A stretch of 64,000 nucleotides of DNA, from NCBI RefSeq assembly GCF_900217905.1, contig NZ_OBMO01000002.1, forward strand, positions 186,922 through 250,921, in the 5' to 3' direction. Positions 52,114 through 57,353 of the stretch are shown piece after piece. Position numbers and translations under genes: made by a program. The stretch is from Alloalcanivorax xenomutans. Lineage in GTDB: Bacteria > Pseudomonadota > Gammaproteobacteria > Pseudomonadales > Alcanivoracaceae. Below the pieces are notes generated by a model that saw only the letters and a program-made list of their open reading frames with translations, was not told the DNA's origin and ran no database searches. Numbering within the stretch: position 1 is the stretch's first letter; each line of letters begins with the position of its first letter.

Positions 52114-52518
52114 TCAGCCACCGCGCCGGCTGTCGCGCAGGGCCCGCAACACGTGACCGCGGGTCAGTAAACCGATCAGCCGGCGCTTCTCGTCCACCAC
52201 CGGATAGATTTTCGGCTTCTGTTTGAGCATCAGCTCCGCCAGATCCACCAACGATTCCTCCACGTCCACGGTGAGCGGATCACCGTGCATCACCTGCTCC
52301 ACACGCACCGCGCCTTCACTGTGATAGCTGGAAACCAGCAGTTGCCGCAGGCAATCCTGCTCCGACACGAAGCCGATGACACGGGTTTCGTTATCCACCA
52401 CCGGCAAACCGGTGATGCGGTATTGCAGCAGCGTGTCCACCACCAGGGTGAGGTCCATATCGGCCGGGATGGACATGGGATGCTTGATCATCACGTCTTT
52501 CACCAACAGACCCGCCAT
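52114..52518 (-). CDS. CBS-domain pair protein
   Basis: A 134-residue protein made of two CBS domains (VKDVMIKHPMSIPADMDLTLVVDTLLQYRITGLPVVD...VIGFVSEQDCL; VEQVMHGDPLTVDVEESLVDLAELMLKQKPKIYPVVDEKRRLIGLLTRGHVLRAL). CBS pairs bind adenine nucleotides and report energy or ionic strength. ATG 52518 follows GGGAGAAG. It is divergent from the membrane ATPase-MscS pair, 243 bases away, so it could belong to that system as a sensor; this is inference. Confidence 0.9.
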   Translation of the reverse strand: MAGLLVKDVMIKHPMSIPADMDLTLVVDTLLQYRITGLPVVDNETRVIGFVSEQDCLRQLLVSSYHSEGAVRVEQVMHGDPLTVDVEESLVDLAELMLKQKPKIYPVVDEKRRLIGLLTRGHVLRALRDSRRGG

Positions 52519-52761: not shown

Positions 52762-55461
52762 ATGGGGCTTCGCTGGTTTATGTCGATGGCCGGGCTGCTG
52801 CTGGCTTTCGCCGGCCAGGCCAACGCGGCCACCGAAACCACCTGCGCCCGGGAACAACGGCAGTTGGAGCAATGGGAACAGCAAACCGTCAGCATGGATC
52901 GGCAGGTGGAGCCCCTGCAGCGTTTGCTGGACGGAACGCCCATTGCTCCGGACACGTTGAATCAGGCGCTTGGCGCACCGGCGGACGCCGCCAACCGGCC
53001 TCCGCCCGGCCCCATTACGCCACCCTCGCTGAGCTGCGAACAATTGGAGGAGAGCCTCAATCAGGCGGTTACCGAACGCCGTGGCGTCCGCGCCCTGCTT
53101 GATGACCAACGCGACCAATGGTTTTCCCTGTCCCGTCAGGAACGCGCCGCCGCATTGGCGTTGCTTGAGGAATACCAGTCCCTGACGGCCCTGGAAACCG
53201 ATCCGCTGGTCCCCTCCGGGCCATTGCGTGATCATCTCACCGCGCTGATCGCCCTGCTCCCGCCCTTGCGCAACCAACCGGCCAACGCGGCCCGCCAGCT
53301 CGACGTTCTCTGGCCGCCGCCGGTGGCGGACATCCAGGCGGATATCCCCGCCCCGCAACGTCTGGCGCTATGGCGTCACCACTATGAAACCCGGCGGCAA
53401 CAATTGGCGCTGCGCTCGGGGCTGTGGCAGCGCCAGGGCGTGCTGCGACTGTGGCTCAGCTACGCGCCGGCGGAGTGGCTCCCGCTGCTCGGCCTGGAGG
53501 CACGGATGACCGTCGACCGCCTCCATCAGGGTTTGGCGCAGACCTACCGGGAATGGACTCTGAACCGGGAGATACGCCATTACACCCCGCTGGTCAGCAA
53601 TGCTCTGGCGGTGATACTCGGTCTCGCCATCCTGGCGCTGGTGATGAAACTGGGCCGGCGCGGCCGCCGTGCCCTGCTTCGCCTGCATGAGCGTCTGGTT
53701 TCCCGGGCTGGCCAGAAGCGCTGGCTGTGGAACGCCAGCCGGCTGCTCAGCGGCATCGCGCCCCTGGTGCCCTGGCTGCTGCTCTGGCTGGTGATCCATC
53801 TGCTGGCACCGTTGCTCGATTCCCCGTCCACCCAGGTGGTGCGCTGGCTGTTGCCACTGGCACGCCTGTATGTGCTGTTCGGTCTGCTGTGGTTATTCGG
53901 GGAATGGCTGGTGTTCCGGGTTTGCCAGAGCGCCCACAGCTATCTCAACGATGCCCAGATCACCGAGGCCAGCGCTCTGGCCCGCCGTCAGGCACTGTGG
54001 ATGATGCTGCCGTGGGCGCTATGGTTCGCGGTGGACCGGCTGATTGGCCAATCTCTTATCGGTTTGCTCTGCACGGTGCTGGTGGGAGTGTGTCTTTATA
54101 TCGCCACCGGCCGGCTGCTGGCGTTCCGCCGTGATGATTATCTGCTGTGTTTACAGAATATTCTGCCATCGGTCCTGGATCCGGTGGCGGAGCGCCTGCT
54201 CAAGGGCCTGCGTTTTGGCTGGACCGCACCGGTGCTGTTACCGGTGGCGCTGGTGAATTTTCTGTTTCATTACCTGGACATGCTGCTCGGTGAACTGGAT
54301 TGGTACCTGCGCCTCAAGGCGCGCTGGTTCCGGTTACGCACCAAAGGGGTCGGAGAGGATGAGGAGCCGGTTCGGGAAGACACCAGCGAGGCCGGAAAGG
54401 AATATCAAAAGTGGTTCGCCAATCAGTTGCCGGACGACCAGGAAACCCCGTTTATCGACACCGGCCTGCTCAATGCGATGATCAAGGCGGTGGAGCAATG
54501 GCATTCTGAAAGCGTGGAAGAAAACGCTTTGCTGGTGACCGGCGAAAAGGGCAGTGGTAAAAGCATGGCCATGCGCAAGCTGGTCAGCAAAATGGAAAAA
54601 GAACAACCGGACCTGCGCCTGGTGACGGTATCGGTGCCGCCGCGCACGGTGACACCGGAAGCGGTGACCTCGATGATCGCCGACGCTCTCGGCGAATCCC
54701 TGGACGAAGGCCCCGCCAGCCTGGTAAAGAACGACGAGCAGCGCCCGCCCACCCTGCTGATCCTGGACGAAACGCAAAACTGCTTCCTCGCCCGTATCGG
54801 CGGGCTGGAAGGCTGGCAGACCTTGCTCACGCTCACCAACGCCCGTCTGGATAACCTGTTCTGGCTGGTATTGATCAACAACCAGAGCTGGTCCTATCTC
54901 TCCAATGTGTTCGGCCGTGACTACCAGTTCCGCCGGGTCATCAAGGTGAAACGCTGGGATCAAAGCGAGATCCGCTCACTGATCCTGTCACGCCACCACC
55001 TCAGCAAGCAGAAGCTGCGCTACGATGATCTGCTGCTGTCCTCGCGGGGTCCGGAGGCCGGCAATATGCGCAATGCGGAACAGCGCTATTTCAGTTTGCT
55101 GTGGGACGCCTGTGGCGGCAACCCGATGGTCGCGCTGAAACTGTGGCTGACATCGATCAAGGTCACCCCCCGGCAGGTGCTGGTGGGCCTGCCGGCACAG
55201 CCTTCGTCGGCACTGGCCGCCGGCCAGTCCGGCGATTCCCTGATGTTCGTCTACGCCGCCATCGTCAGCCATGAGAATCTGTCCGGCGATGAAATCGTCG
55301 CTGTCACCGATCTCTCCGAGAATGTAGTGCGTTCCGCGCTCAAGGCAGGCCAGGACGCCGGGTTCATCTATAAGGGGGAAGACAGCCGCTACCGGGTGGT
55401 GCCGATGTGGTATCGCACCGTGATCAATCAACTGAACAGGAAGAATCTGCTCCATGAATGA
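52762..55461 (+). CDS. Membrane-anchored AAA-type ATPase with periplasmic domain and winged helix
   Basis: An 899-residue protein unlike standard families. In order: a signal sequence (residues 1-22); a periplasmic, coiled-coil-rich region to about 265 with two cysteines (C28, C92); about six membrane segments between 279 and 506; a cytoplasmic ExeA-like AAA domain with Walker A GEKGSGKS (594-601) and Walker B LLILDE (665-670); and a C-terminal winged helix (about 840-890, ENVVRSALKAGQDAGFIYKGEDSRYRVV). The periplasmic plus membrane plan resembles the N-terminal part of large MscS channels such as MscK, but the pore domain is missing. It is encoded instead by the next gene, which overlaps by eight bases. 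A nucleotide-driven partner of that channel is proposed. AAGGAG precedes the ATG. Confidence 0.8.
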   Translation: MGLRWFMSMAGLLLAFAGQANAATETTCAREQRQLEQWEQQTVSMDRQVEPLQRLLDGTPIAPDTLNQALGAPADAANRPPPGPITPPSLSCEQLEESLNQAVTERRGVRALLDDQRDQWFSLSRQERAAALALLEEYQSLTALETDPLVPSGPLRDHLTALIALLPPLRNQPANAARQLDVLWPPPVADIQADIPAPQRLALWRHHYETRRQQLALRSGLWQRQGVLRLWLSYAPAEWLPLLGLEARMTVDRLHQGLAQTYREWTLNREIRHYTPLVSNALAVILGLAILALVMKLGRRGRRALLRLHERLVSRAGQKRWLWNASRLLSGIAPLVPWLLLWLVIHLLAPLLDSPSTQVVRWLLPLARLYVLFGLLWLFGEWLVFRVCQSAHSYLNDAQITEASALARRQALWMMLPWALWFAVDRLIGQSLIGLLCTVLVGVCLYIATGRLLAFRRDDYLLCLQNILPSVLDPVAERLLKGLRFGWTAPVLLPVALVNFLFHYLDMLLGELDWYLRLKARWFRLRTKGVGEDEEPVREDTSEAGKEYQKWFANQLPDDQETPFIDTGLLNAMIKAVEQWHSESVEENALLVTGEKGSGKSMAMRKLVSKMEKEQPDLRLVTVSVPPRTVTPEAVTSMIADALGESLDEGPASLVKNDEQRPPTLLILDETQNCFLARIGGLEGWQTLLTLTNARLDNLFWLVLINNQSWSYLSNVFGRDYQFRRVIKVKRWDQSEIRSLILSRHHLSKQKLRYDDLLLSSRGPEAGNMRNAEQRYFSLLWDACGGNPMVALKLWLTSIKVTPRQVLVGLPAQPSSALAAGQSGDSLMFVYAAIVSHENLSGDEIVAVTDLSENVVRSALKAGQDAGFIYKGEDSRYRVVPMWYRTVINQLNRKNLLHE

Positions 55462-56272
55462 GAACGGCGACATTGTCAGCGACCTGGCGGTGGTGATCGA
55501 CCTGTTCAACGCCTACGCCATACTGCTGCTGATTCTCGGCGGGCTGTTTCTGTGGGCGCTCAATTGGGGGCTGAACCGGCTCGGCCATTCCCTGATGGAA
55601 CGGTTGCCCAGCCGCCGCTTCCTGATTCTCCAGTTCATCACGCTGGTCAGCTTTCTGATTTACACGCTCGGTACCGGCGCCCTCATCCTCGGCGTTCTGA
55701 ACCCGCCCAGGGAGTTCATTCTGGCCGCCGCCGGTTCCTTGGCGGTGGCGCTGGGTTTCGCTCTCAAGGATGTGGTGGCATCGCTGGTGGCCGGACTGCT
55801 GCTGTTGTTCGACCGGCCATTTCAAGTGGGCGACCGGGTGCAGTTCGGCGATACCTACGGCGAGATCGTGGCCATAGGTTTGCGCGCGGTGCGGCTGCAG
55901 ACCCTGGACGACAATCTGGTCACCATCCCCAACTCCCTGTTCATTACCGACGCCGTCGCCTCCGGCAATGCCGGCGCCCTGGATATGATGGTGGTGTCGG
56001 ACTTTCATGTCGCCCTGGACGCGGATCTGGAGCAGATTGAAGCGCTGATTCGCGAAGTGGTGGTCACCAGCCGCTACGCTTATCTGAAAAAACCGGTGAC
56101 CTTCGCCATCGAAGAAGTGGAAATCGGCAATGCCCTGGCGATCCGTTTCCGCACCAAGGCGTATGTCCTGGACGTGCGCTACGAGACCGCCTTCCGCAGC
56201 GACGTGGTGGTGCGCGTCACCACGTTGCTCAAGGAGCGCGGGATTCCCCGCCCGCGCATCCTGCGTGGCTGA
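55454..56272 (+). CDS. MscS-type mechanosensitive channel
   Basis: A 272-residue channel, near the length of E. coli MscS. Two membrane segments (about 17-40 and 58-82) precede the pore helix REFILAAAGSLAVALGFALKDVVASLVAGLLLLF (about 86-119), then the beta domain DRPFQVGDRVQFGDTYGEIVAIGLRAVRLQTLDDNLVTIPNS and a cytoplasmic cage domain. AGGAAG precedes the ATG, which lies inside the end of the ATPase gene, so translation is coupled. Small MscS proteins normally stand alone; obligate pairing with a membrane ATPase is unusual and suggests gating or assembly by that partner. Confidence 0.93.
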   Translation: MNENGDIVSDLAVVIDLFNAYAILLLILGGLFLWALNWGLNRLGHSLMERLPSRRFLILQFITLVSFLIYTLGTGALILGVLNPPREFILAAAGSLAVALGFALKDVVASLVAGLLLLFDRPFQVGDRVQFGDTYGEIVAIGLRAVRLQTLDDNLVTIPNSLFITDAVASGNAGALDMMVVSDFHVALDADLEQIEALIREVVVTSRYAYLKKPVTFAIEEVEIGNALAIRFRTKAYVLDVRYETAFRSDVVVRVTTLLKERGIPRPRILRG

Positions 56273-56360
56273 CGGTAAGGTGGTTGACGTGAATTGCACT
56301 TGCCGGTCAGCGGGACAAACCGACAATGGGAGCCAGTCTGTTCCCGGAACCGTCCCGACC

Positions 56361-57353
56361 ATGCTCATCGATGCCACCATGTCCCGCCAGAACTTCCATC
56401 ATGTGGTAGCGGCCCTGGATGCACGCGTGCCTGGCGGGAGGCTGGATCAGGCGCTCAACGAGTACCATTTGGAACGCTGTACCGAAGCGGAGCGGATCAA
56501 TCATTGGCGTTGCGCCGATCTGACCGCCCGGCTTGCCGATCAGCAGGGCGATCCGGCACTGCTGGCCCGGGGGTTTCAGGCGCTGGAACAACAGCGCCGG
56601 CTGTTCCCCGGCCTGTCGCCGATCCCCGGCGACATTCTGGACCGGGTCAACCAGTACCAGCGCTACCTGTGCCTGCATTCGGAGCTTGGTGATTACCGTC
56701 TGCGGATCGGCGCCGAGGAAAGCAGCCTGCAGCTGTTCCGCCGCCCCGGCTTCGAGAGTTACGACGGCCAGGCCCTGGCATTGCTGTATTCCACCTGCCG
56801 CCTGTTGGAACGCGGCGGCCCCTTGCGCATACGGCGCGTGACTCTGCGCGCCCGCCATGGCGAACGGGGCCGCCGGGATCTGGAAGCGCTGCTGGGCGTA
56901 CCGGTCAGTTGCGGGGAAGAGCAGGACGGCGTGGTCTTCAGCAACGCCCACCTGCTGCAACCTTCCGCCACGGCCGGCAGTCTCGACGCCCTTGGCCAGC
57001 GTGAGCGGCAACTGCGGCGCATGCAACCCGGCCTCGGTTGGAGCGACTCGGTGCGCGGCCTGCTGCCGACCGTGGTGGGGCTGCCGGGCAAGCCGCTGGC
57101 GCTGTGCGCCTCGCTACTGGCGGTGAGCGAACGCACCCTGCAACGGCGAGTGGAAGCGGAGGGGCAGGATTTCCGCTCCCTCCTCAGTGACAGCCGCCGG
57201 CAACTGGCGCTGACACTGATGCCCTGGCGCGATCTCACCACCGAGCAACTGGCGGTGCGGCTCGGTTACAGTCAGACAGCGCAGTTTTATCGCGCCTTCC
57301 GCGACTGGTTCGGTGAATCACCGGGCCGCAAACGCGTGGCCATGTACGGTTGA
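56361..57353 (+). CDS. AraC-family regulator
   Basis: A 330-residue regulator of the Arabinose_bd type with a C-terminal helix-turn-helix (LALCASLLAVSERTLQRRVEAEGQDFRSLLSDSRRQLAL...TTEQLAVRLGYSQTAQFYRAFRDWFGESPGRKR). The reading frame is open back to 56130 inside the MscS gene, but ATG 56361 begins the recognisable protein and has GGAA upstream. It precedes a serine hydrolase gene on the same strand and is its likely regulator. Confidence 0.86.
   Translation: MLIDATMSRQNFHHVVAALDARVPGGRLDQALNEYHLERCTEAERINHWRCADLTARLADQQGDPALLARGFQALEQQRRLFPGLSPIPGDILDRVNQYQRYLCLHSELGDYRLRIGAEESSLQLFRRPGFESYDGQALALLYSTCRLLERGGPLRIRRVTLRARHGERGRRDLEALLGVPVSCGEEQDGVVFSNAHLLQPSATAGSLDALGQRERQLRRMQPGLGWSDSVRGLLPTVVGLPGKPLALCASLLAVSERTLQRRVEAEGQDFRSLLSDSRRQLALTLMPWRDLTTEQLAVRLGYSQTAQFYRAFRDWFGESPGRKRVAMYG

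Follow-up and report, generated by a model that had tools for sequence, protein, structure and literature searches.

MscS is a model for membrane force sensing and is usually treated as a self-contained homo-heptamer. In the E. coli protein a C-terminal beta-barrel closes the cytoplasmic cage, a feature that is not on record for every family member. Its larger relatives MscK and MscM (YjeP) have, close to the MscS unit, a signal peptide, a helical region at the N-terminus and further membrane helices. Here, we analysed a locus in a 64,000-nucleotide stretch of the Alloalcanivorax xenomutans genome (contig NZ_OBMO01000002.1; hereafter, the window), in which a gene for a membrane-anchored AAA+ protein runs directly into a gene for a minimal MscS channel. 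These genes belong to a conserved two-gene system made of an AAA+ partner and one MscS clade. With a probability of roughly 0.6, we read them as a two-part MscS channel in which the AAA+ protein is a dedicated auxiliary subunit capping or clamping the cytoplasmic cage. A query of the open-access PMC literature, which mostly leaves subscription papers outside, returned, among the matches listed, none that dealt with an MscS channel paired with an AAA+ protein.

Both open reading frames (ORFs) are present as described in an earlier note made from the sequence alone (Table 1). They share eight bases, ATGAATGA, within which the 899-residue ORF ends and the 272-residue MscS ORF begins. The identity of the channel is given by an MscS beta-domain (PF00924, MS_channel_2nd) at residues 106-168, scoring 73.5 bits against a cut-off of 20.2, and by three hydropathy peaks (6-41, 51-69 and 86-109). 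While these features are common to MscS channels, an obligate-looking AAA+ partner gene, a set of clade-specific residues and the missing C-terminal barrel motif set this one apart. Similarly, the system differs from MscK and MscM in consisting of two overlapping genes, in containing an AAA+ domain and in having an N-terminal half without detectable similarity to theirs. The host genome (4.35 Mb, 47 contigs) carries one copy of the ATPase gene and four MscS-domain matches, one of them within a 1116-residue frame. Alloalcanivorax balearicus MACL04, also a gammaproteobacterium in the family Alcanivoracaceae, has an ATPase with 98% identity to it.

The earlier note had called for a survey of ATPase neighbourhoods and held that homologues usually found apart from MscS would speak against its idea. 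In searches starting from the ATPase, an MscS gene stands immediately behind the relative in all 61 genomes and all four plasmid records (65/65), and the order is constant, with the partner first and the channel second. Control loci with only weak, generic AAA matches have MscS in 0 of 37 cases; these (L011, L013, L053-L074 and L090-L102) are the weak matches available as loci, not every weak match, and four have little or nothing downstream in the stretch examined. Within the family, 36 of 46 genomes match the ATPase, with E no higher than 4.7e-146 in 35; a weak match in G398 (E 2.8e-4) was scored as without ATPase. All 30 family loci examined have the MscS gene next on that strand, overlapping by the same 8 bp, and the two genes are adjacent by coordinates in the remaining five genomes (G406, G407, G408, G410 and G411), the channel gene of G410 being truncated by a contig end. 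Beyond the family, pairing was found in 7 of 7 further strong class genomes, in 14 of 14 phylum genomes with profile A1, which includes L008-L010 (added after MscS had been seen beside them) and leaves out L011 and L013, and in 5 of 5 genomes with profile A2, which was built from partners found via the channel search and matched seven genomes, of which only the five outside A2 were counted. A weak match in G363 (E 2.3e-6), outside the control loci, later proved to belong to subfamily 2, introduced below, and to be paired. Among the plasmid records, that of Novosphingobium pentaromativorans US6-1 lists an 'AAA family ATPase' and, after a 2 bp gap, a 'mechanosensitive ion channel family protein'; the two genes overlap by 4 bp in Caulobacter sp. 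NIBR2454, and the partner gene is likewise paired with MscS in Novosphingobium sp. PP1Y and Halomonas sp. PA16-9.

Searching from the channel gave 25 matches at E 1e-20 or better in 23 of the 369 class genomes. The best 16 have an ATPase relative directly upstream; the other nine are three small channels without a partner and six matches within long MscK-type frames, which run off the examined stretch and whose upstream genes are outside view. In the family, both genes occur in 35 genomes and neither in 11 (G391, G398-G405, G412 and G413), so that presence and absence agree in 46 of 46, although these counts, like those of pairing, are not independent of descent. Absences in the profile searches, which scored four or five candidates per genome, are soft. 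The paired-type channels (E 2e-34 or better) occur in exactly those 35 genomes that have the ATPase, all 46 genomes have other MscS genes, and G391, which lacks the pair, belongs to the window's own genus. Taken from either gene, the survey bears out the proposal of a dedicated membrane AAA+ partner for an MscS channel. L118 (G337) was retained as paired despite a reading frame that is disturbed, also at the channel end, and a weak partner score (E 1.3e-4). In G365 (L129/L135) and Halomonas sp. PA16-9 (L192), the gene for a pseudo-ATPase partner is interrupted while the MscS reading frame that follows is open, which possibly marks ongoing loss of the partner. The paired channel is directly followed by a second MscS gene at L149 (G498) and at L190 (Caulobacter sp. 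NIBR2454), and L149 also has a third MscS-like gene.

The paired channels form one clade. In a midpoint-rooted tree of 68 MscS domains, 37 paired rows and a single unpaired one (L119) stand on one side of a branch with 100/100 support; the long row L120 meets this clade, a point flagged by the tree software, and MscK-type channels lie outside it. R55, Y135, D153, N172, G174 and R254 are invariant in 37 of 37 paired channels and occur in at most 4 of the 31 others. Conversely, a C-terminal beta-barrel motif, [FY][PS][QKTR], chosen with the sequences in view, is found in 0/37 paired channels versus 26/31 others, and is missing from L119 as well. Residues 266-286 of E. coli MscS form the beta-barrel under the cage, and a channel lacking them is reported to have a slightly higher opening threshold, to inactivate normally and to fail to recover (PMC4440785). 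Given that the paired channels lack the motif and that barrel-less E. coli MscS fails in recovery, we propose that the AAA+ partner could take the place of the barrel.

Two proteins that merely share their expression, both serving osmotic stress without contact, would also produce adjacent genes and joint presence, which is the kind of evidence presented here, and would accommodate L119 as a clade member without partner. However, pairing is strict in Alphaproteobacteria as well as in Gammaproteobacteria, no third gene is widely conserved, and the channel carries clade-specific changes. Across 21 neighbourhoods (the window and 20 others), only the ATPase and MscS genes are present in all, and no other gene cluster occurs in more than four; the MscS genes of L137 and L151 and the ATPase gene of L155 were missed by the gene caller and are known from the searches. 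We consider shared expression alone quite improbable; the AAA+ protein and the channel very probably work as physical partners.

ORF, Pfam and an AlphaFold2 model agree on the architecture first described for the 899-residue protein: the AAA domain, whose Walker motifs are intact, is preceded by a helical N-terminal region and six hydrophobic helices and followed by a winged helix. Pfam matches no MscS domain in the protein. AAA_22 scores 43.3 bits (cut-off 27) at residues 587-705, and a TrmB match to the winged helix is weak (16.2 bits, cut-off 25.6). The model shows long helices in the N-terminal region, six further long ones between residues 275 and 509 and an AAA+ fold from about residue 540; its mean predicted local distance difference test score (pLDDT) of 88.1 and predicted template modelling score (pTM) of 0.60 define the domains but not their mutual placement. 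A PDB sequence search with the window ATPase by itself gave no match. In a structure search, the part from about residue 540 resembles ORC/Cdc6 (7jgr_G, Z 16.4, root-mean-square deviation (rmsd) 3.6 over 248 residues), and TnsC comes close behind (Z 15.2, rmsd 4.7 over 262 residues). The combination of AAA+ fold and winged helix is common to these proteins (Z about 14-16); the window branch differs in being membrane-anchored, paired with a channel and part of a family in which the ATP site is often lost.

Could the protein be a STAND-like sensor that uses the channel as its effector, for example in anti-phage defence? A borderline NACHT match (27.1 bits, cut-off 26.7) and the order of a nucleoside triphosphatase domain followed by a winged helix point in this direction. 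Yet the protein ends six residues past the winged helix, without sensor repeats in the model, the ATP site is often lost in the family and the pair is retained in 35 of 46 family genomes. PADLOC yielded nothing beyond AAA matches that were weak and partial (window protein, best E 0.0029; L146, 1.5e-4) and none for P0002 or L117 at E 0.01, and a phage collection contained no match to the window protein (P0001). On these last two grounds a defence module was rejected, and a STAND-like sensor is very improbable.

The earlier note had viewed the locus as an MscK-like channel split in two, with an ATPase inserted; the AAA+ protein would then be the N-terminal half. The layout is indeed alike, with a signal peptide, an N-terminal helical region, membrane helices and a separate MscS unit, and the nearest solved sequence to the channel is MscK (7uw5, E 2.3e-17). 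Against this, comparison of the N-terminal half with 12 MscK-type N-termini yielded an hhalign probability of 7.6%, the fold of that half not being compared alone, whereas the two membrane-bound partner types resemble each other there (75.6% over 300 columns). MscS_porin (PF12795) reaches only 14.7 bits against a cut-off of 34.4 and does not figure in the 25 families with the most matches to 41 partner members. A structure search with the 899-residue model placed no MscK chain among its best 50 matches, which span the AAA+ part only, the N-terminal domain not being searched separately for fold. Soluble relatives without any N-terminal half exist, and the paired clade does not include the MscK-type channels. 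On the strength of the profile comparison, the Pfam score and the MscS tree, we rejected the split, which we regard as extremely improbable.

Partners vary widely around a constant AAA+ fold and winged helix with an MscS gene behind. The largest (~780-1094 residues) have an N-terminal region and membrane helices, those of ~650-690 residues lack the N-terminal region, and the smallest (~390-430 residues) consist of AAA+ and winged helix only; the 791-residue partner of L008/L139 (G101), with a long N-terminal part and no hydrophobic helices, is a third kind of attachment to the AAA+ core. The ~400-residue partners of L111-L118 make up subfamily 2, which a profile comparison connects to the window's subfamily (probability 99.6%, E 1.3e-23, 303 columns). 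A model of one such protein (mean pLDDT 79.8) matches RuvB (Foldseek E 1.2e-05) and NSF (Z 10.6, rmsd 3.9 over 196 residues), so that models of the window protein and of subfamily 2 both contain the AAA+ core fold. A Pfam scan of two of these ~400-residue partners found no family above cut-off, and genome annotation alone would thus not reveal their link to MscS.

The ATP site is equally variable. Of 41 main-subfamily rows, 28 retain the Walker A lysine and the other 13 carry eight different replacements, while glycines 597 and 599 are conserved in 41/41; the Walker B aspartate is present in 40/41 and the glutamate in 21/41. Mapped onto the MscS tree, the lysine appears to have been lost in at least four branches. 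Given these 13 losses and the lack of a P-loop in all 11 members of subfamily 2, ATP use is not general, and ATP control of the whole family was rejected. Of the earlier term 'ATP-controlled', what stands is the intact Walker motifs of the window protein, by which the window-branch partner is best read as ATP-competent; as a family rule it does not hold. Catalytic loss also bears on the idea that the AAA+ protein is an assembly factor, which folds, inserts or assembles the MscS heptamer and stays outside the working channel. The partner gene always precedes the channel gene, and chaperone roles are frequent among AAA+ proteins. Repeated loss of catalytic residues would be odd for an ATP-driven chaperone, however, and the nearest fold is that of ORC/Cdc6/TnsC, which makes an assembly factor unlikely.

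We favour a two-part channel with a capping or clamping subunit, which might operate as follows. The AAA+ subunit would be made just before the minimal, probably heptameric MscS pore, by coupled translation. Its AAA+/winged-helix part would most likely dock beneath the cytoplasmic cage, at the site of the missing beta-barrel, although we propose this position at the cage floor tentatively. From there, the partner could control inactivation of the channel and its recovery. In the window branch, where the subunit is predicted to be membrane-anchored with an intact ATP site, binding or hydrolysing ATP could serve to reset or tune the channel; that ATP resets it is a doubtful proposition. Branches with a dead ATP site may use the subunit as a fixed cap or clamp. 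One speculative and rather unlikely version has an AAA+ ring, perhaps sevenfold, replacing the cage floor, which would, by binding or hydrolysing ATP, pull the channel from inactivation in ATP-competent branches and, in the others, serve as a pseudo-ATPase cap by which inactivation behaviour is fixed.

Several observations weigh against the two-part channel. L119 (G239) belongs to the paired clade but has no partner upstream, and a partner search of the G239 genome gave only a 12-bit match, so this channel may work alone; given its position inside a subgroup of the clade, its partner seems to have been lost later. With the window ATPase as sole query, 9 of 369 class genomes matched. MscS accompanies six of these matches but not the weakest three (G055, G075 and G203; E 2.7e-4 to 8.7e-4). 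The barrel motif was defined after the sequences had been viewed, an earlier, narrower pattern having given 0/37 versus 21/31, and a few paired channels have longer tails, of up to 56 residues. The loss of the Walker A lysine from 13/41 main-subfamily members and the P-loop count of 0/11 in subfamily 2 belong here as well. Finally, the count of membrane crossings varies with the analysis, family-averaged hydropathy giving six peaks and single-sequence hydropathy five. A cleaved signal peptide followed by six crossings would leave the AAA+ domain outside the cell, and hence the number of crossings is probably odd or one helix re-entrant.

A divergent gene upstream of the pair encodes a protein with two CBS domains. 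The gene, pointed out in the earlier note, is real, but its cluster occurs in only 2 of the 21 neighbourhoods (the window and L151); it was therefore rejected as a third component and is probably unrelated to the pair. Downstream, the next ORF, taken at its greatest length, overlaps with the MscS gene, and its true start is probably further downstream.

Table 1. Coordinates in the window of the AAA+/MscS gene pair, its parts and the flanking genes.
Feature	Position	Strand	Evidence
Protein with two CBS domains (divergent)	52114..52518	-	92.0 bits to PF00571
AAA+ partner protein of MscS channel, 899 residues	52762..55461	+	Relatives upstream of MscS
Likely signal peptide, residues 1-22	52762..52827	+	Sequence; family-averaged hydropathy peak 6-24
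Helical N-terminal domain, residues 23-270	52828..53571	+	AlphaFold2 model; missing from ~650-690-residue relatives
Six hydrophobic helices, residues 277-502	53590..54267	+	Family-averaged hydropathy and model
AAA+ domain, residues 540-817, ORC/Cdc6/TnsC-like	54379..55212	+	Pfam AAA_22; Z 16.4 to 7jgr_G
Walker A GEKGSGKS, residues 594-601	54541..54564	+	Intact; lysine retained in 28/41 relatives
Walker B LLILDE, residues 665-670	54754..54771	+	Intact; Asp in 40/41, Glu in 21/41
C-terminal winged helix, residues 825-893	55234..55440	+	AlphaFold2 model; weak TrmB match
8-bp gene overlap ATGAATGA	55454..55461	+	Identical overlap in 30/30 family loci, 2/7 class loci
Minimal MscS channel, 272 residues, three hydrophobic segments	55454..56272	+	Pfam, hydropathy, nearest solved sequence MscK 7uw5
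Short channel C-terminus, residues 260-272, without beta-barrel motif	56231..56269	+	Motif count 0/37 versus 26/31
Next ORF, longest reading	56130..57353	+	AraC-like helix-turn-helix at C-terminal end, judged by eye

An MscS clade that comes with an AAA+ partner and lacks the usual cage-floor motif offers a natural way into the study of channel inactivation and recovery. The series of partners from an intact to an absent ATP site, provided by the family itself, makes the role of ATP directly testable. Should the partner indeed use ATP, the release of turgor would be tied to the energy state of the cell.

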